DNA from: a virus
Length of the DNA: 20,127 bases
Strand: one strand, 5' to 3'
Virus record (IMG/VR): IMGVR_UViG_3300027805_000109
Span: 1-20,127 of that record
Part shown: piece by piece, positions 4,332 through 20,127 of the stretch
Layout: each line of letters begins with the position of its first letter
Position numbering within the stretch: the stretch's first letter is position 1
Program-made: the position numbers and the translations under genes
The notes under the pieces: model-generated
What the model was told of the DNA's origin: nothing
The model's database searches: none
The model's input: only the letters and a program-made list of their open reading frames with translations

Positions 4332-5651
4332 TCAGTTGACCTTCAAACGCCTTGGCGACCCCTTGGCGGGGCTGGAATGGGCATCCCTTGGGGCGACCTC
4401 AACCCCACTTTGGGAGGGGGGCTGGCTGTATTCCCACCTGATGACCCCCTTCTCGGCGGCGTGGCGGATGTGTATCTCGCCCTTAAACTGACCTTCGGAG
4501 TCTCGGAGGCCGGCACGGCCACGGCGCTTGGTCAGGCCGAACTTGTAGATCGGCTCGTCGCCCTGACATCGGAAGAGGACAGCGACCTCGCGGAAGTAGT
4601 TCGTAAACTCGGACGACCCTAGGCCCGCGTAGGCTAGGTCGGCGACGGTGTGGCCTTCCTTGTCGCTGGCGGCCTTGGGCTTGCCGGTGTGGTGCATGGC
4701 TACGAGGACGGCGCCTGTCTCGAGCAGGATCGGGGCGAGGTCATGGCGCAGGAACTTGGAAGCCTGCTCCTGGTCGGACACGTCGATGCCGGCGAAGGAG
4801 AGCAGCGGGTCGACGAACACGATGTCTGCCCGGTGTTCGCGGACTAGGTCGGCGAGGGCGGCGGTGAAGGCCGTGCCTGTGCTGACGGTGTCGCGGAAGA
4901 TGGCGAGGGACTCCCGCAGCTGGTCACGCTCCTGGCTGTCGAGGTAGGCACCTGCCACGACGTCCTGCAAAGCCTCGGACACGTCGCCCGCGTCATTCTC
5001 TGCCTGAAGGATGATGGCCCGCAGGGGTCGGGCTGGCTTGATGCCGAAGAAGTCACGGCCTAACGCCCAATGCACTGCGGCCTGCATCATCAGGGACGAC
5101 TTGCCCGTGCCGGACTGGCCGACGATCAGAAGGGAGCCGCCCTTGCAGAGCCAGCGGTTGCCGAGGACGGTGTTCGGGTCGTCCTTGCGGTCGAAGGCCA
5201 TCAGGTCGTCGAAGGCCATGCGCTTGGGGCCGTGCTTAACCTTTGAGCCCTTGCGCTTGTCGGCGAGGCGGGCATAATGGTCGAGCAGGACATCCGGGTC
5301 GGTGGTCGGGTCTAAGGCGTGTCCTGCGAGGTTGGCGGCCTCGCGTAAGGTCGCCATGCGCCGGATGATGTCGACGTGTTCGGGGCGATATGTCGATTGA
5401 CCGCATTCAGTGACTAGGAGCGAGATGCTTGTGGCGTCCACTGGCGATCGGTCAAAGCGGAGTCGCTCGGTGACGGTAAGTTCGTCGGCGACCATGCCGT
5501 CGAGCTGAAGCGAGCAGATGGCCCGGGCGATGTCAGCGTGGGCGGGCTCGAAGAAGTCGTCGTGAGATAGGTCGGCAGGGAAAGGGAGCGCGTCACGGAG
5601 AAGGACACCGAGGAGGTGGCGTTCCGCCGGCACGTTGTTCGGAGGAGTCAT
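4332..5651 (-). CDS. Replicative helicase-like ATPase (DnaB N-domain plus RepA-type AAA)
   Basis: A 439-aa protein. Residues 7-110 resemble the DnaB N-terminal helical domain (PAERHLLGVLLRD, FFEPAHADIARAI, ADELTVTERL). A RecA-fold ATPase of the RepA/AAA_25 kind follows: Walker A GQSGTGKS at 178-185, Walker B DIVFVDPL with D281, and a sensor-like AMHHTGK at 318-324. The C-terminal tail is polar. Fused DnaB-N/RepA-type helicases are common in phage replication modules, where they unwind DNA at the fork. The gene follows the tandem-HTH gene after a 40-nt C/A-rich gap and has no Shine-Dalgarno. A primase domain was not seen in the protein or elsewhere in the window. Confidence 0.85.
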   Translation of the reverse strand: MTPPNNVPAERHLLGVLLRDALPFPADLSHDDFFEPAHADIARAICSLQLDGMVADELTVTERLRFDRSPVDATSISLLVTECGQSTYRPEHVDIIRRMATLREAANLAGHALDPTTDPDVLLDHYARLADKRKGSKVKHGPKRMAFDDLMAFDRKDDPNTVLGNRWLCKGGSLLIVGQSGTGKSSLMMQAAVHWALGRDFFGIKPARPLRAIILQAENDAGDVSEALQDVVAGAYLDSQERDQLRESLAIFRDTVSTGTAFTAALADLVREHRADIVFVDPLLSFAGIDVSDQEQASKFLRHDLAPILLETGAVLVAMHHTGKPKAASDKEGHTVADLAYAGLGSSEFTNYFREVAVLFRCQGDEPIYKFGLTKRRGRAGLRDSEGQFKGEIHIRHAAEKGVIRWEYSQPPSQSGVEVAPRDAHSSPAKGSPRRLKVN

Positions 5652-5691
5652 GGAAGAGAGGGTTGGGGTTTGGGGGCGTGGGTGCCCTTGG
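5652..5691 (-). promoter_or_regulatory. C/A-rich leader of the helicase gene, no Shine-Dalgarno
   Basis: On the minus strand the 40 nt between the HTH gene and the helicase are dominated by C and A, contain AAACCCCAACCC, and end with CCCTCTCTTCC before ATG. There is no purine-rich ribosome site. The composition matches the leaders at 9046-9082 and 15313-15329. Confidence 0.4.
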
Positions 5692-7794: not shown

Positions 7795-8229
7795 CTAGAA
7801 GGGCGGGGCTTCGGTGTGGGACTCAGGAACGATGGGCTTCTGGCCGCCCTTGGGGAAGGTCAGCTTGTATTTGAACTGGGGCTTGCCGTTCCACTCGCCG
7901 TTCGGGATGGCCTCGACGCCGATCAGGCAGGTCTTGCCGCAGGCGGGTTCGATGTACTGCATGAACTCGGCAGGGGTCGCGTCCAAGCGCAGCTCTTCGG
8001 TGAACTTGCCGGAGAACTTGCCGATGAGCATGGCGAGGGGCTTGCCATACTTGGAGCCGTAGGACTTCGACAGGCAGTTGCCCTGGTCGTCGAGGAAGAA
8101 CAGGCGGGCGGAGGAGGTGCCGTCCTCGTTGTGCTTCACCTTCTCGAACTTCGGCTTGATGAGCTTCAGTTTATAGGTGCCATTCACTTCGATGGACTTG
8201 AGGGGCGGGCGGTCGTTGTTGGGTTCCAT
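7795..8229 (-). CDS. SSB-like single-stranded DNA-binding protein
   Basis: A 144-aa protein with a beta-strand-rich body: GTYKLKLIKPKFEKVK at 17-32, ARLFFLDDQG and FKYKLTFPKG. It ends in SHTEAPPF. An acidic/proline tip ending in Pro-Phe is the hallmark of bacterial SSB C-termini, which recruit repair proteins. The body resembles the OB-fold SSB-like proteins found next to phage exonucleases. It lies directly downstream of the RecE-like exonuclease with a 9-nt gap, TCTCCCACC. Together with ERF and the exonuclease it would make the annealing system. The call rests on tail motif and context, not on strong family residues. Confidence 0.68.
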   Translation of the reverse strand: MEPNNDRPPLKSIEVNGTYKLKLIKPKFEKVKHNEDGTSSARLFFLDDQGNCLSKSYGSKYGKPLAMLIGKFSGKFTEELRLDATPAEFMQYIEPACGKTCLIGVEAIPNGEWNGKPQFKYKLTFPKGGQKPIVPESHTEAPPF

Positions 8230-8238
8230 GGTGGGAGA
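8230..8238 (-). promoter_or_regulatory. Recurrent intergenic leader TCTCCCACC before ATG
   Basis: The nine bases between the TAA of the exonuclease gene and the ATG of the SSB-like gene read TCTCCCACC. The same TAA-TCTCCCACC-ATG string occurs at 10995-11009, and a near copy at 15160-15177. It contains no Shine-Dalgarno; the core is pyrimidine-rich and closer to the anti-Shine-Dalgarno itself. Confidence 0.55.
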
Positions 8239-9045
8239 TTAGGCGAAGGAGATGTTGGTCGCGGCGCTGGGCTTGGCGGCGAGGTCGATGGTGGTGATCT
8301 CCTTCTGGTAGCCGGGCCACTCGCCCGAGGCGGTGCAATCCTTATAGAGTTTGATGGCCCGCTCGAAGTCGAACGCGGCGTTCGTCATCAGTTCCGGCCC
8401 CAGCTCATAGACGGCGGTCGCATAGGGCGGCTCCTTCTCGACGGCGATAAAGCGGAAACCAAGGACGCGGCACTTGTAGGCGGCCTCGACGGCGTGGCGA
8501 TAGAAGTAACTTTGCAGGGGGTAATTATACTTACGGCAGGCTGCCAAAAATCCGCGAGGGCTGGCATCCTCACAACTTTTTAGGTCGTAGATATAGCCGT
8601 CTTCAGAAATCCCGTCGATTGCACATTTGACCAAGACGTCACCGAGGAAGGCCGTGAACATGACTTCGGTCTTGGAGAGGACGATGCCGTGTTCCTTCAT
8701 GCAGCCGATCGCGGCGTTGGAGACAGCGTCGACCAAGGCGCCTTCATCGGCGGTCAGGATGGCCTTCCCTTCGTTGGCCGTGGCGAACTCAGCAAAGGCC
8801 GCTTTGCCTTCCTTAGTCCGCTTATCCACTTCGGGGGCGATGGCGTGGGTGGCGTTGTATGCGTCCAGCCCTTCGAGGGCCAGTTTGTGGACGGCGGTGC
8901 CGACCCGGAGAGCCTTGGACTCTTCGCGGGTGCGGGCGAGATACGCCTGGTAGTGGGCGGGGGACTTGAGCAGTTCCTTGGCGCCGCTCTGGTTAAGCGC
9001 TTGGATGCCGTCATAGATGACGCGTTCGGTGATGAGGTCGGGCAT
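8239..9045 (-). CDS. RecE-like 5'-3' exonuclease (PD-(D/E)XK)
   Basis: A 268-aa protein of the phage RecE/exonuclease VIII-like family. Family marks are SGAKELLKSPAHYQAYL at 20-36, LRVGTAVHKLALEG with H53 at 46-59, E127 in KTEVMF, AIDGI with D144, YDLKS with D154 and K156, and the helix NYPLQSYFYRHA with Q178. These form the metal-binding nuclease core that degrades one strand of double-stranded ends to leave single strands for the ERF annealase encoded nearby. It is shorter than E. coli RecE but typical for phage versions. A 37-nt A/C-rich leader without Shine-Dalgarno precedes the ATG. Confidence 0.88.
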   Translation of the reverse strand: MPDLITERVIYDGIQALNQSGAKELLKSPAHYQAYLARTREESKALRVGTAVHKLALEGLDAYNATHAIAPEVDKRTKEGKAAFAEFATANEGKAILTADEGALVDAVSNAAIGCMKEHGIVLSKTEVMFTAFLGDVLVKCAIDGISEDGYIYDLKSCEDASPRGFLAACRKYNYPLQSYFYRHAVEAAYKCRVLGFRFIAVEKEPPYATAVYELGPELMTNAAFDFERAIKLYKDCTASGEWPGYQKEITTIDLAAKPSAATNISFA

Positions 9046-9082
9046 TGGTATTCGGTGTTTGGTGTTCTGGGTTGGTGGGAAA
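9046..9082 (-). promoter_or_regulatory. A/C-rich leader of the exonuclease gene
   Basis: On the minus strand this gap starts TTTCCCACC after the TAA, close to the nonamer found elsewhere, and goes on with AACACCAAACACC up to the ATG. It is almost free of G, has no Shine-Dalgarno, and should be unstructured. ACCAAACAC is also found in the leader at 15313-15329. Confidence 0.45.
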
Positions 9083-9379
9083 TTAGAGCAAGGCCATGAT
9101 GGCGTCGGCCTGATCGGGGCGACGGCGCTGGATGGCGGTCACGCACATGGTCGAGCCCACGGCGAAGCGGGAGCAAGCGACAGGGCGGTTGCTGTATGTC
9201 TTGCACTTGCCGGAGCCTGACAGGTGCGGGCATCGGCTAGGCAGTTCGGCGAAGGTGCGTCCGACAATCTGGAAGACTTCGCCACGGGCGGAATAAAACT
9301 CCGTCGTGGTCGGGCTGGCGTCGATAGGGATGAGGATGCTTTCACAGCAAGCCCCCTTGCACAGTTCACAGGCTGTCAT
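9083..9379 (-). CDS. YkgJ-type CxxCxxxCC metal-binding protein
   Basis: A 98-aa cysteine-rich protein with the YkgJ/CxxCxxCC family pattern: CELCKGACC (C4, C7, C11, C12), then CPHL (C50), CKTY (C59), NRPVAC (C69) and C79. Members are thought to bind zinc or an iron-sulfur cluster; the biological role is poorly known. The start was placed at ATG 9379 so that the first cysteine cluster is at the N-terminus, as usual. This gives a 14-nt overlap with the upstream gene. It lies in the middle of the recombination genes, just before the exonuclease, which hints at a DNA-related or redox role but does not prove it. Confidence 0.82.
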   Translation of the reverse strand: MTACELCKGACCESILIPIDASPTTTEFYSARGEVFQIVGRTFAELPSRCPHLSGSGKCKTYSNRPVACSRFAVGSTMCVTAIQRRRPDQADAIMALL

Positions 9380-10313: not shown

Positions 10314-10542
10314 GGTTGCGGGCCTCCTGCCATTCGCGCATGGCGTCCATGACTTCCTCCGGGGTGACGGACTGGGCGTGTCGGAAGCAATAGGCGAGCG
10401 CGTCGCCGGCCTCGCGGAGGGTTTCGAGGCGTTCCTCGAGCTGATGGATGCGGGCATCCTTGGCGTCGAGCATATTGCCCTGGTGCATGGCACGCATGGC
10501 GGCGCTGACCGGGTCGAAGGGGTCAAACTCGGGCTGGCTCAT
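10306..10542 (-). CDS. Small coiled-coil protein
   Basis: A 78-aa protein with a central coiled coil (about 25-50: DARIHQLEERLETLREAGDA) and a C-terminal helix (TPEEVMDAMREWQEARN). It starts in a 4-nt overlap with the ERF gene, so it is translationally coupled to it. No family recognised. It could act with the annealase, but only proximity supports that. Confidence 0.65.
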   Translation of the reverse strand: MSQPEFDPFDPVSAAMRAMHQGNMLDAKDARIHQLEERLETLREAGDALAYCFRHAQSVTPEEVMDAMREWQEARNHA

Positions 10543-10997
10543 CGGGTGAGGGGGCGAGGGGTGGCAGGGCTAGGGGCGGAGGCCACGGAGGCCGCAGGGC
10601 GGAAGCCAGAGGCCACGGCGCCGTCATCGTCGAGGTCGACCGAGATGCCGCAGGCGGTCTGGATGGACTGGCGGCGGATGTAGGTGATGGCTCCGCCGAT
10701 CTGCTGGGCGGTCAGGCCGTCAGCCTTGACCATCAGTTTGCCGAAGTCGAAGCGCTCGCCCGACGCGTGGAGGAACGCGGTGGACACGCCGACCTTGCCG
10801 TCCTCGGAGACGAGCGTCTGGATCAGAGCGAGGTCGTGGTCGAGCAGGATGGGCTTGATGGCGTCGAGCAGCGCGTCGAGGGAGACGTACTTGGCTTTGA
10901 AGGCCGGGTTGATTTTGTTGGCCTTGACGTTGTCGAGCTCTGCGAGCGCGGCGACGAGGGAGCCAGTGGCGGTTTGGGTTTTGGGCGTGGTGCTCAT
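10539..10997 (-). CDS. erf: ERF-family single-strand annealing recombinase
   Basis: A 152-aa protein matching the ERF family along its core: NPAFKAKYVSLDALLDAIKP at 30-49, the LIQTLVSEDG turn, TAFLHASGE at 73-81, TAQQIGGAITYIRRQSI at 96-112, and an acidic DLDDDG at 121-126. ERF proteins form rings on single-stranded DNA and anneal complementary strands, working with a 5'-3' exonuclease like the one encoded downstream. The C-terminal 25 residues are Ala/Pro-rich and probably disordered. The gene starts 9 nt after the upstream stop behind the TCTCCCACC leader. Confidence 0.92.
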   Translation of the reverse strand: MSTTPKTQTATGSLVAALAELDNVKANKINPAFKAKYVSLDALLDAIKPILLDHDLALIQTLVSEDGKVGVSTAFLHASGERFDFGKLMVKADGLTAQQIGGAITYIRRQSIQTACGISVDLDDDGAVASGFRPAASVASAPSPATPRPLTR

Positions 10998-11006
10998 GGT
11001 GGGAGA
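10998..11006 (-). promoter_or_regulatory. Second exact copy of the TCTCCCACC leader
   Basis: Between the TAA of the 74-aa gene and the ATG of erf the nine bases are TCTCCCACC, identical to 8230-8238. The flanking genes are unrelated, so this is not a simple gene duplication. No Shine-Dalgarno is present. Confidence 0.55.
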
Positions 11007-11231
11007 TTATTTGGTGGGCTGGTCAGCCTTGGCGACTTCACCGGCCTTGATGGTGGCTTCGATGTCGGCGAGGGACATCCGGGTGTAGCCAGGGACGAAG
11101 AGGTTGTAGTAGGTCACGCCGTTGCGGACGGTGGGCGTGAGCAGGCGGGCGACCTTCTGGTCGGGTAATACGATGTAGGACGAGTCCGCAATGATGCGGT
11201 AGTCGGCGGGGAGTTTCGGGTCTTTCTTCAT
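11007..11231 (-). CDS. Small beta-rich protein, perhaps NUMOD-like
   Basis: A 74-aa protein. The segment DYRIIADSSYIVLPDQKVARL followed by VRNGVTYYNLFVPG (split here for length: DYRIIADSSYIVLPD, QKVARLL) loosely resembles the NUMOD-type DNA-binding modules found with homing endonucleases, but there is no nuclease domain and the similarity is weak. It is the first gene after the inverted-repeat gap at 11239-11281, so it may be regulated there. The leader is CTCTCCCCTC directly before ATG, again without Shine-Dalgarno. Confidence 0.6.
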   Translation of the reverse strand: MKKDPKLPADYRIIADSSYIVLPDQKVARLLTPTVRNGVTYYNLFVPGYTRMSLADIEATIKAGEVAKADQPTK

Positions 11232-11238
11232 GAGGGGA

Positions 11239-11281
11239 GAGTTTACAAAAGTCGGGGGGTGTCTGAGTTATGTAAACTCAG
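11239..11281. promoter_or_regulatory. Nested inverted repeats (operator or RNA hairpin)
   Basis: GAGTTTACA (11239-11247) is repeated as its exact complement TGTAAACTC (11271-11279). The second arm also lies within a tighter hairpin, CTGAGTT (11263-11269), loop ATGTA, AACTCAG (11275-11281), which covers the stop codon of the RuvC-like gene. The two pairings exclude each other. No T-run follows, so a terminator is unlikely. Confidence 0.55.
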
Positions 11282-11742
11282 TTGATGACGCGGCGGGTGG
11301 CGGCGTCGTAGATCAGGAGGGCGTCGGCGTTCCAGAGGGTGACGTCGACAGTCGGAAACAGTTCGGCAGCGCGTGCCTTGAGTTTGTTCTTCCACTGGGT
11401 CGAGGACAGTTCGCCCTTCGTGCCGCAGGTGTGGGCCTTCTGCCAGATGGCGGGACGGATGCGGTGTATCTTCCAGCCCATGGCGACGGCGGCGCCGTAA
11501 AGGACGCCCGTGTTCCACATCAGTTTGCCGATGGCCGAGCCGGGGATGTTCTTGCCGGCGAACAGGGGAGGCTCTTCGAGGAAGAGTTCCGCGTCCTTGG
11601 CCTTGCAGCTCAAGTCAGCGAGCAGTTGGCAGACCTCGACATCCGATCCGGGCATCTTTGCGCACTCGACAGGATCACCGTCGACCGACCAGACGATGCC
11701 ACCGTTCACGCCAGGGTCGATTGCCACAAGGAGGGATGCCAT
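11278..11742 (-). CDS. RuvC-like Holliday-junction resolvase
   Basis: A 154-aa protein of the RuvC/RNase H-fold resolvase group. It begins with AIDPGVNGG (D9), has LFLEEPP (E56/E57) in the middle and NADALLIYDAA (D140, D146) near the C-terminus, the expected four acidic positions of the active site. These enzymes cut branched DNA formed during recombination and packaging. The start was taken at ATG 11742, right before the first beta-strand, as usual for the family. It is preceded by the palindrome AAAGACTCTTT at 11747-11757. Its position between the recombination genes and the SLT enzyme fits a role in resolving junctions made by ERF. Confidence 0.87.
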   Translation of the reverse strand: MASLLVAIDPGVNGGIVWSVDGDPVECAKMPGSDVEVCQLLADLSCKAKDAELFLEEPPLFAGKNIPGSAIGKLMWNTGVLYGAAVAMGWKIHRIRPAIWQKAHTCGTKGELSSTQWKNKLKARAAELFPTVDVTLWNADALLIYDAATRRVIN

Positions 11743-11746
11743 TGGG

Positions 11747-11757
11747 AAAGACTCTTT
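11747..11757. promoter_or_regulatory. 11-nt palindrome AAAGACTCTTT
   Basis: This perfect palindrome with a one-base centre spans the stop of the SLT gene and the leader of the RuvC-like gene. It shares the GACTC core with AGGAGACTCCT at 3230-3240. It might be a protein-binding site; at this length chance occurrence is possible. Confidence 0.25.
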
Positions 11758-12929: not shown

Positions 12930-13257
12930 ACCCTCGGGCCTCCATCTCGGCGATGACCTTCTCGTTGTGCATGGCCACGGCGTAGGCCCGGTCATGCTTG
13001 GCCAGCCAGTGGTCGCGGGAACCTGCGAGGCGGGCGACCTCTTGCCGGAGGTTCGTAATCTCCTCGGACTGGTCGACGATGATGTGCGCCTGCATCTCGA
13101 GGGCCTTGTCCTGCCGATCGGTGAGGGCTCGGAGGGCGTTGGCGGCGCTGTGCAGGGTGCGGGCGTAGCTCCAGGGGAAGAGCCACCAGAGGGCGGGCTT
13201 GTCGTGGGGTCGGATGATGGTCATGGGTTTGTATGGGCGGTGGGATGGGTCAGGCAT
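12916..13257 (-). CDS. Coiled-coil protein with aromatic N-terminus
   Basis: A 113-aa protein from ATG 13257, which overlaps the methyltransferase stop by 8 nt; ATG 13224 would give 102 aa. Residues 20-40 are aromatic (KPALWWLFPWSYART), perhaps an interfacial membrane-touching segment but too short for a clear transmembrane helix. A coiled coil follows (about 45-100: VDQSEEITNLRQEVARLAG). No family recognised. Confidence 0.62.
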   Translation of the reverse strand: MPDPSHRPYKPMTIIRPHDKPALWWLFPWSYARTLHSAANALRALTDRQDKALEMQAHIIVDQSEEITNLRQEVARLAGSRDHWLAKHDRAYAVAMHNEKVIAEMEARGYVRL

Positions 13258-14896
13258 GGGAAGGAAGGGTAGAGTCAACGGCGGCGATGCGTTCACCGAT
13301 CCAGCGCATGACTGGGACTGCCATGGAGTTCCCGCAAGCCTTATACCGCGGGCCGTCGGGACAGTCCTCCTCGGGCTTGCCCTTCCAAGAGATGCGGGAC
13401 CAATTATCTGGGAAGCCTTGGAGTCGTTCGCACTCGACCGGGGTGAGGCGGCGGACGGCCATGGCGGTCATAGTCCCGATGACAGCGGGGGCTGTATTGC
13501 CGCCAGCGTTAGCGGGAAGTGTCGGGCTTACGTTCTCGTCCCATCCGATGCTACGAGATGCTGCTCCCTGTCCGCTCTTAAAAGCCGCGGCAGTTGGGTA
13601 AGCAATGTGCGGCATCTGGTCTCCAGCCGAAGCCTTGAGGGTAGTAGTAGTAGTAGACGGATCTGCGCCAGCGTCTCGGCGTAGGTTGCCAGGTTGAAAG
13701 GTCACGGCTAAAGCCTCGGCCTCGACCCGTTCGTTGCCGGTGCGGGAGTAGGGCGGGCCACTTGCTCCGATCGTCGGGGCGACGGAACCGGGCATCTGAT
13801 GGCAGACGCCGTGGATGTCAGTCTTGGTCAGCGTGAACATCGGGCCGCCTTCGGTCGCACCTGTGCCTTGCGGGCCGGCGTTCTCGCCTCTGCCGATGAT
13901 CGTCCCTTGGATGGCGACAGGCTGCACGACGGCATGAGTCGTCCGGGTGTCGCCGAGGTCGAAGTTGTTCAGCGTGTTGCTGGCGTCGGCGGGAACCCAA
14001 GTCTCGTTGTCGGTCGTGGAGCAGGCTTGCTTGGATTTGCGGAAGGGGGTCGGCTGACCCGGCACGAGGTAAGCACCGCCTTGGCTGAACAGTTCCTGAT
14101 TAGACGATCCGACCCCACCGCTGCCCTTGGCTGACTGGTTGAGCGTCGGATGGACGTCACCGCCGTCCCAATGGGAGATAGGCTGAAGCACCGTTAGGAA
14201 CCTGTTCTTCTCCGGCATGGTCTGGCCCTTCGCAAGCACCGCGTCGAGGGTCTGGCTTACTTGGCCTCCGTCCCACCAGCAGCCTGCCGCAGGGCTTGTT
14301 CCAGCGCCGGCGGCAGGGCTTTGCCCCTTCGCTCGGCCCTTCTTAGTATCCCGGCGCACGCAGTCGGGCTCAAGAAGAACCTCGGCGGGAGCACGCCAGT
14401 CTCCAAGACACGCGACAACGAAGACTCGACGGCGACGCTGCGGGACTCCGAAGTGTTGAGCGTCCAGCACTCGGTAGGCGAACCCATACCCGAGTTCGAC
14501 CAACGCCCCGAGGAAGGAACCAAAATCCCGTCCACCCGCTGAACTGAGGACACCTGGCACGTTTTCCCAGACGATCCATCTGGGCTTGAGCTTATCAGCG
14601 AGTCCAAGAAAGACGAGGGCGAGGTTGCCGCGTGGGTCATCGAGTCCTTTGCGGAGTCCGGCGACGGAGAAGGACTGGCAAGGAGTCCCGCCGACCAGAA
14701 GGTCGATTGCTCCGGGTTCAAGGGGCCATTGTTTGTATTCGGTGAGTGAGCCATAGTTAGGGATGTTGGGAAAGCGGTGTTTGAGGATAGCGCAGGGGAA
14801 GGGTTCAATCTCGGAGAAGCCGACAGGCTGCCAGCCGAGGGGATGCCACGCGACGGACGCGGCTTCCATGCCCGAGCAGACGGAGAGGTAACGCAT
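13250..14896 (-). CDS. C5-cytosine DNA methyltransferase with large recognition region
   Basis: A 548-aa enzyme that transfers a methyl group from SAM to cytosine C5. Motifs: I SVCSGMEAAS at 5-14; IV GGTPCQSFSVAG with catalytic C73; VI ENVPG at 111-115; VIII QRRRRVF at 153-159; IX RLTPVECERLQGFP at 483-496; X YKACGNSMAVPV at 518-529. All expected residues are present. The region between VIII and IX is about 300 aa, much longer than in simple enzymes, and contains seven copies of a TL...G...V-type motif. No restriction enzyme gene is nearby, so this is an orphan methyltransferase, probably for protection against host restriction. ATG 14896 overlaps the HTH gene stop by one base (TAATG). Confidence 0.95.
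   Translation of the reverse strand: MRYLSVCSGMEAASVAWHPLGWQPVGFSEIEPFPCAILKHRFPNIPNYGSLTEYKQWPLEPGAIDLLVGGTPCQSFSVAGLRKGLDDPRGNLALVFLGLADKLKPRWIVWENVPGVLSSAGGRDFGSFLGALVELGYGFAYRVLDAQHFGVPQRRRRVFVVACLGDWRAPAEVLLEPDCVRRDTKKGRAKGQSPAAGAGTSPAAGCWWDGGQVSQTLDAVLAKGQTMPEKNRFLTVLQPISHWDGGDVHPTLNQSAKGSGGVGSSNQELFSQGGAYLVPGQPTPFRKSKQACSTTDNETWVPADASNTLNNFDLGDTRTTHAVVQPVAIQGTIIGRGENAGPQGTGATEGGPMFTLTKTDIHGVCHQMPGSVAPTIGASGPPYSRTGNERVEAEALAVTFQPGNLRRDAGADPSTTTTTLKASAGDQMPHIAYPTAAAFKSGQGAASRSIGWDENVSPTLPANAGGNTAPAVIGTMTAMAVRRLTPVECERLQGFPDNWSRISWKGKPEEDCPDGPRYKACGNSMAVPVMRWIGERIAAVDSTLPSHA
13641..13656 (+). repeat. Trinucleotide repeat (GTA)5G inside the methyltransferase
   Basis: GTAGTAGTAGTAGTAG lies in the recognition region and encodes five threonines (residues 415-419). 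Slippage here would add or remove residues without shifting the frame. Confidence 0.8.
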
Positions 14897-15162
14897 TAGG
14901 CGCGGGTCTTGTACGGTCCACGGACCTTGAGGTTCGTCCAAGTAGTCCCGGTGATTTCAATCCACTTGCGGAGGGAGCAGACGGTCGTGCCGAGGGCGGC
15001 GGCGGCGTCGGCCTGCGTCTTGCCGGCGGCGTTGAGCGCGGCGATCTGCGGGAGGATAGCCTGCAAGCGGACGGCGGCATAGACGGCCATCGGTCGCTTG
15101 AGGGGGATAGGCCGACCAGCGAAGGTGAGGTGGTCGGTGTAGGGGTGGTTGGCGTTGGGCAT
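14896..15162 (-). CDS. Small HTH protein ahead of the methyltransferase
   Basis: An 88-aa protein with a helix-turn-helix at about 47-70 (GKTQADAAAALGTTVCSLRK) after a basic, proline-containing N-terminus. It is directly upstream of the methyltransferase and overlaps it by one base. Small HTH proteins beside methyltransferases often control their expression, so a regulator role is plausible, but sequence similarity to known C-proteins is not evident. The leader is TCTCCACCCACC, related to the nonamer seen before erf and the SSB-like gene. Confidence 0.68.
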   Translation of the reverse strand: MPNANHPYTDHLTFAGRPIPLKRPMAVYAAVRLQAILPQIAALNAAGKTQADAAAALGTTVCSLRKWIEITGTTWTNLKVRGPYKTRA

Positions 15163-15174
15163 GGTGGGTGGAGA
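15163..15174 (-). promoter_or_regulatory. Variant of the CT-rich leader (TCTCCACCCACC)
   Basis: The twelve bases between the TAA of the 45-aa membrane-protein gene and the ATG of the HTH gene match the TCTCCCACC leader with three extra bases in the middle. The flanking TAA and ATG are also the same. No Shine-Dalgarno is present. Confidence 0.5.
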
Positions 15175-15312
15175 TTAGCGGGAGCGGCGAATGGCCTTGG
15201 CCTTGACCGGCTCGGGGCCGTTGATGGCGCGGTAGAGTTCCGGGCCGCAGAAGGTGACGACGGCCAGCCAGCCGAAGATGATGAGGAACGAGAGGGCGAT
15301 GAGGGACTTCAT
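15175..15312 (-). CDS. 45-aa single-pass membrane protein
   Basis: The frame from ATG 15312 encodes a 45-aa protein with a hydrophobic segment at residues 4-22 (LIALSFLIIFGWLAVVTF) followed by a basic tail ending AKAIRRSR, so the C-terminus is probably cytoplasmic. No family recognised. It is the first gene after the 212-bp control region and is followed 12 nt later by the HTH gene behind a conserved-looking leader, which supports it being real. Its own leader, GCACCACCAAACAC, has no Shine-Dalgarno and shares ACCAAACAC with the exonuclease leader. Role unknown; small phage membrane proteins of this sort can be lysis or superinfection factors. Confidence 0.65.
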   Translation of the reverse strand: MKSLIALSFLIIFGWLAVVTFCGPELYRAINGPEPVKAKAIRRSR

Positions 15313-19777: not shown

Positions 19778-20098
19778 TTAGACCGTGACGGAGTCGATGA
19801 CGTTGACGCGGAAGATTTCGGAGCGGCTGACCGTGGAGCCGGGGAAGACGAACTTGATGTCCCAGCGACCGACGCCGATGGCCCAGTCCGCCGTCGAACC
19901 CGTGTAGGCCACGGTGAAGGACAGGCCGTCGCCCGCCTTGGTGACGGTCATCGCGTACTGATTGAACTGCTTGTCCTCGAAGGTCGAGGTGATCGTGGTT
20001 GTCAGGAGGTTGGCCGGACCAGAAGCACCCGGCGTCCAGGAGAAGACGCAGGCGAAGGTGTTGCCCCTCGAGATGGTTACGGTGTTAGGACAGCTCAT
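19778..20098 (-). CDS. Beta-rich tail-tip or baseplate protein
   Basis: A 106-aa protein with regular beta-strands: TVTISRGNTFACVFSW, TTTITSTFEDKQ, WDIKFVFPGSTV, EIFRVNVIDSV. The plan resembles short phage proteins of the BppU-N or Ig-like type that lie before fibre genes and make up the tail tip or attach the fibre. The start overlaps the upstream stop by 4 nt; the stop is 3 nt (GCC) before the fibre ATG. Family membership is not proven by a diagnostic motif. Confidence 0.68.
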   Translation of the reverse strand: MSCPNTVTISRGNTFACVFSWTPGASGPANLLTTTITSTFEDKQFNQYAMTVTKAGDGLSFTVAYTGSTADWAIGVGRWDIKFVFPGSTVSRSEIFRVNVIDSVTV

Positions 20099-20127
20099 CG
20101 GGTCTTAAACTTGCCCCGATTGGAAGG
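20095..20127 (-). CDS. End of an upstream gene (partial)
   Basis: The last ten codons of a frame entering from the window edge (ending PSNRGKFKTR, then TGA) overlap the next ATG by 4 nt, the usual junction here. A second in-frame stop possibility (TAA in GTTTAAG) exists in another frame. In tailed phages a tail gene would be expected at this place, but the piece is too short to say. Confidence 0.4.
   Translation of the reverse strand, partial: PSNRGKFKTR

Follow-up and report, generated by a model that had tools for sequence, protein, structure and literature searches.

Shared TAA-to-ATG leaders of a viral record as a probable stop-leader-start module for Shine-Dalgarno-independent initiation

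Most documented cases of translation initiation without a Shine-Dalgarno (SD) sequence come from Bacteroidetes and have A-rich contexts. In Flavobacterium johnsoniae, starts lack the SD and carry Kozak-like bases, and the anti-SD is kept in the ribosome (PMC6847099). SD-scarce genomes also occur among the Verrucomicrobia, including Akkermansia and IMCC26134, in which CCUCC is kept in 16S rRNA (PMC10783764). Furthermore, ribosomal protein S1 binds pyrimidine-rich unstructured leaders, at sites that are U-rich and lie further upstream (PMC5397173). The start context described here is C-based and occurs in a G+C-rich bacterial lineage and in phages. This context and that of Bacteroidetes (PMC6847099) share the absence of the SD and an initiation tuned by absent structure and by the bases just before AUG; unlike in Bacteroidetes, where A at −3 and −6 matters, C at −1 and −2 is strongest here, the spacer is C/T-rich and G-free, and T is disfavoured at −3. 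With Akkermansia and IMCC26134 the lineage shares its phylum and the scarcity of SD interactions; that study reports missing SD pairing, and no CC-ATG context was found in the passages of its text that were searched (PMC10783764). The leaders resemble described S1 leaders in placing unpaired, U/C-containing RNA upstream of non-SD starts, but their spacer is C-rich and just 6-15 nt long (PMC5397173). Together, SD-free initiation in Bacteroidetes and SD-poor Verrucomicrobia are known, whereas neither a CC-ATG context in Verrucomicrobiota nor its use by phages turned up in the part of the open-access literature searched.

The window, by which we mean the whole stretch of DNA analyzed, is a 20,127-base viral record, a fragment only, with tailed-phage genes on the minus strand. 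It holds two exact copies of TAATCTCCCACCATG, both on the minus strand (8227-8241 and 10995-11009), and no copy of the reversed control pattern; TAATCTCCACCCACCATG is found at 15160-15177 (minus strand), before an HTH-like gene. The identical leaders of the SSB-like gene and erf, and the near-identical HTH leader, are therefore as given in the original prediction, made from the sequence of the window. In all three, the TAA terminates the upstream gene (an exonuclease VIII-like gene ending at 8239, a 74-aa ORF ending at 11007 and a 45-aa ORF ending at 15175), and the C-rich part that follows fills the whole distance to the next ATG. The SSB-like gene (7795-8229, minus; 144 aa) has TAA at 8239-8241, TCTCCCACC at 8230-8238 and ATG at 8227-8229. 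The same TCTCCCACC, at 10998-11006, separates TAA (11007-11009) from the ATG (10995-10997) of the gene for an Erf-like ssDNA-annealing protein (10539-10997, minus; phrog_2324, E 3e-32). At the HTH-like gene (14896-15162, minus; 88 aa), TCTCCACCCACC lies between TAA (15175-15177) and ATG. The labels of the SSB-like and HTH-like genes come from the original prediction, and neither gene has a PHROG match. The leaders before 11231, 5651 and 11742 had also been read correctly: the 74-aa ORF (11231-11007) is preceded by CTCTCCCCTC and ATG (11229-11241), a DnaB-like helicase gene by a G-poor leader ending in CCCCAACCCTCTCTTCC and ATG (5649-5680), and a RuvC-like gene by TCTTTCCCA and ATG (11740-11751), a host-type context that is merely average (all minus strand).

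The exonuclease gene has a longer, G-poor leader (9043-9085, minus) that starts with TAA-TTTCCCACC at the upstream stop codon. Within 9046-9085, TAA-TTTCCCACC stands directly at that stop, 37 nt from the ATG, so this part of the motif is tied to the stop codon rather than to the spacing from the ATG. The exonuclease-SSB stretch has no match in the INPHARED phage collection. In the DNA methyltransferase gene (13250-14896, minus), about 230 residues between the N-terminal catalytic and the C-terminal parts lie outside most methyltransferase profiles.

As to repetition by chance in a C-rich genome, the count in the window alone is borderline: with up to two mismatches allowed there are five matches, compared with 1.96 for shuffled sequence, and five or more turn up in 6 of 100 shuffles. 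In a related set of 160 viral loci (1.36 Mb), collected from two viral-contig scans with the terminase and the exonuclease, the placement is far above chance. Of the 94 sense copies of TAATCTCC, 87 fall in the 12 nt before a start, although such positions make up 2% of the related-phage sequence, and seven lie elsewhere; five copies are antisense. TCTCCCACC stands just before a start in 33 of 34 sense occurrences, with one antisense, and both counts include homologous copies, the related loci not being independent samples. TAATCTCC precedes at least four unrelated gene families in these loci. When each gene family contributes a single member, TAAT[CT]T appears at 3.8 families on average against 0.2 in shuffled sequence, ACC-ATG at 7.8 against 1.8, and CC-ATG at 15.5 against 6.1. 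Plain CT-rich strings are not enriched per family (TCTCC, 2.0 vs 1.4; CTCCC, 1.4 vs 2.4 shuffled), so the wider grouping of CT-rich leaders that had been put forward is unsupported as a string motif. The looser pattern TAA-(no G)3-14-CCATG occurs 271 times in sense and 9 times in antisense in the phages, and 10 times in the bacterial genome G001, with none for the reversed control. Per-family enrichment and placement at starts refute chance repetition in the main, and we regard it as highly improbable. The strand and position counts also argue against the proposed binding of a phage protein: very few copies of the strings lie antisense or off-start, and a DNA-binding operator was rejected on the same counts (5 antisense and 7 off-start vs 87 at starts).

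Across the phage family, starts behind a gap of 6-40 nt are poor in G, which accounts for 3-5% of the bases from −9 to −5, and rich in C at −2 and −1 (about 70%); the upstream stop is TAA in 204 of 273 such starts. Overlapping starts, which account for much of these phage genomes, do not have the G-poor/CC context. As had been noted, there is no Shine-Dalgarno: the SSB, erf and HTH leaders contain no SD-like purine motif at −4 to −16. Predicted folding at spaced starts is −3.8 kcal/mol compared with −8.6 kcal/mol for random 40-mers, and for the single start regions it is −1.6 (SSB), −1.3 (erf) and 0 kcal/mol (HTH). The resemblance of the leader to the anti-SD is explained most simply by a spacer that is rich in C and free of G. 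A Rho-type C-rich site was considered and rejected, the spacers being too short (9-40 nt between translated genes).

In the bacterial genome collection, relatives of the terminase were found only in three MAGs, assigned to Opitutales (97% identity), Opitutae (82%) and Verrucomicrobiota (61%). The phage host is probably a freshwater Opitutales (Verrucomicrobiota) lineage, a call that depends on metagenome bins, in which phage contigs can be mis-binned. Genes in stretches of the MAGs were taken from a simple, home-made codon-based caller that is blind to upstream sequence, and their starts are predicted; as a positive control, the same procedure finds an SD in 59% of E. coli starts against 13% in shuffled sequence. 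Spaced starts of G001 and G003 show the SD near the shuffled level in most classes, with little or no excess (0.047 vs 0.041 shuffled for G001 operon-internal gaps). They carry C at −1 in 68-78% and at −2 in 45-60%, with T almost absent at −3 and raised at −8/−7, and few G. In both genomes this pattern is the same at operon-internal and first-in-operon starts, so that promoters do not account for the CC context. G001 starts have no excess of plain CT-rich strings (0.152 vs 0.148 shuffled).

Within ribosomal-protein operons, an SD precedes 4-8% of starts in G001, G002 and G003, compared with 59% in E. coli. By the same procedure, the pooled value is 12% in the family of G001, where a few members still stand at 30-38%, and 21% elsewhere in the order; most of the other genomes sampled from the phylum fall at roughly 30-75%. 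Retention of the SD by most of these relatives makes the phylum a natural comparison for the loss of SD use. The assemblies of the three nearest MAGs contain no 16S rRNA; in another genome from the host family the anti-SD is intact (GGATCACCTCC), and S1-domain proteins are encoded in all three MAGs.

A position matrix trained on bacterial starts alone was then applied to phage ATGs. Among host starts, the SSB leader ranks at the 96th percentile and the erf leader at the 99th, and they outscore 99.6% and 99.9% of the non-start ATGs of the phages, respectively; the HTH and 11231 leaders reach the 90th and 79th percentiles of host starts. For phage starts (40 families) against non-start ATGs, host-family matrices reach AUCs of 0.81-0.87, whereas control matrices from SD-using relatives (0.58) and from E. 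coli (0.51) fail on phage starts; these AUCs, with family means as positives and single ATGs as negatives, are comparable with one another and are not absolute values. Shuffled leaders score below the real ones across the 40 families (p 1e-5), and the real score is reached by 2.4% (SSB) and 2.0% (erf) of same-letter shuffles, so the host matrix beats composition. The largest contribution in the matrix is that of C at −1 (+0.96 bits), alongside C at −2 (+0.61), and the role of A at −6 (+0.62) and at −3 (+0.45) is secondary, which departs from the Kozak-like context of Bacteroidetes. The whole host context is weak, about 1 bit, and the exact string TAATCTCCC is therefore not demanded by context alone.

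Together, sense-strand placement at starts and the match to the start context of the probable host favour one of the functions originally suggested, a signal for translation initiation. We consider it probable that, in the shared string, stop, leader and start form a compact module for SD-independent initiation, tuned to the probable Opitutales-family host. Position, strand, the lack of an SD, the lack of predicted structure and the match to MAG starts are observed; the agreement between phage and host is one of sequence, and initiation at these ATGs is predicted. In such a module, the TAA stop of the upstream gene would be reused and would give the A-rich part of the leader, and the next 6-15 nt would be nearly G-free and unpaired, the spacer ending in [AC]CC right before ATG. 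The 30S subunit could land on this unpaired pyrimidine-rich RNA, perhaps aided by ribosomal protein S1, and the bases at −3 to −1 may favour AUG selection, by analogy with the Kozak-like bases of Bacteroidetes. The ribosome might read the leader through S1, through direct contact at −3 to −1, or through mere lack of structure. The identical 12-mers would then lie close to the optimum of one loose code instead of forming a signal of their own, and recombination may have helped to spread them.

Comparison of the junctions among relatives indicates what is constrained. At most junctions the exact letters of the leader drift through substitution and indel. At the erf junction, 84% of relatives retain TAATCT, and the C-run varies by indels; before the SSB-like gene, TAATCTCCCACC persists in the closest relatives and many others have TAATACC; at the HTH junction, relatives show forms such as TAATCTTCCCACC, and the length varies. 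The gap at the 11231 junction is 6-12 or 46-49 nt in relatives, some of which have the RuvC stop directly in TAA-TCTCCC-ATG, without the gap of 46-49 nt. Selection on the leader, as originally proposed, is borne out in part: conservation of the leader exceeds that of neighbouring third codon positions at the erf, helicase and RuvC-like junctions, but not at the SSB, HTH and 11231 junctions among the relatives. The constraint common to the families is a G-free unstructured spacer with a CC or ACC end, that is, composition and the bases next to ATG rather than the exact letters throughout. The gap before the helicase gene (about 40 nt, G-poor, 5652-5691, minus) is conserved, with 0.10 differences against 0.23-0.26 at nearby third codon positions, which suggests a further regulatory element.

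This pattern bears on two other accounts of the repeat. The leader might be a recombination boundary, a short functionless homology spread by exchange of gene cassettes, and an identical string before unrelated genes, together with junctions that gain or lose sequence among relatives (as in the two gap classes at 11231), would be in agreement with it. Such exchange, however, leaves unexplained both the same context at bacterial starts of the host lineage and a base-level drift that keeps G absent and CC before ATG; we consider this account improbable. Still less probable is that a phage RNA-binding regulator or an RNase recognizes the leader as a specific sequence and so acts on a replication and recombination regulon. 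TAAT[CT]T-CC does precede several early-type genes (SSB-like, erf, HTH, 11231), and some late-type genes share another leader, but the letters at SSB, HTH and 11231 are not conserved, and the part enriched across families is the host-type CC/ACC end.

Promoters of the TANNNT type that give leaderless mRNAs are known from Deinococcus and Actinobacteria. TAATCT could be such a −10 element, with transcripts starting at the A of ATG: at two genes of the window, SSB and erf, it lies exactly 6 nt before ATG, the expected register. Furthermore, long-gap genes of G001 show an excess of TANNNT at −13/−12 (11 vs 2.05 expected, p 1e-5; 4 vs 1.3 in G003), and a leaderless promoter is accordingly possible for the two exact copies. 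Unlike in leaderless promoters, the distance is variable, TAAT[CT]T lying at about −8 to −17 from ATG in relatives, and TAA doubles as the upstream stop codon. TANNNT at the fixed −13/−12 holds for the SSB and erf genes of the window and is not kept among relatives, which include TAATCTCCC-ATG, too near for a leaderless start, and many SSB leaders of the form TAATACC-ATG, in which the last T is missing. Inspection by eye showed no −35 box, and the CC context is equally strong at operon-internal and first host genes. We consider a leaderless promoter unlikely, though less so than the recombination boundary or the regulator site, and leaderless promoter, protein-binding site and RNA processing are all less supported than SD-independent initiation. 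As an observation on the bacterium itself, the TANNNT excess in G001 suggests that a few percent of its genes are leaderless.

A stronger form of SD-independent initiation, which we put forward tentatively and hold to be rather unlikely as a whole, is that the Opitutales lineage gave up the SD and that its ribosome or an initiation factor would directly read a C-based code of unpaired G-free spacer, [ACG]CC and ATG. Phages would copy this code, stop and leader would form a standard cassette, and the context could be used to assign hosts. A C-based start context is of interest as a sequence signature with which uncultivated phages can be tied to their hosts and gene starts called correctly.

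A different leader, approximately TTCCAA-N4-GCA(A/T)-N-T-A, is present at 20098-20127 (minus strand), about 19-20 nt before ATG, where the copy in the window reads CCTTCCAATCGGGGCAAGTTTAAGACCCG-ATG. Leaders of this type precede about five unrelated late-type families, including structural-type genes of relatives L007, L008 and L003, and are possibly a late promoter or late leader. In L007, near 7147, and in its relatives, a hairpin with a T run (CCCCCAGCAATGGGGGCCTTTTTT) stands directly before one late-type leader, arranged as a terminator followed by a promoter would be.
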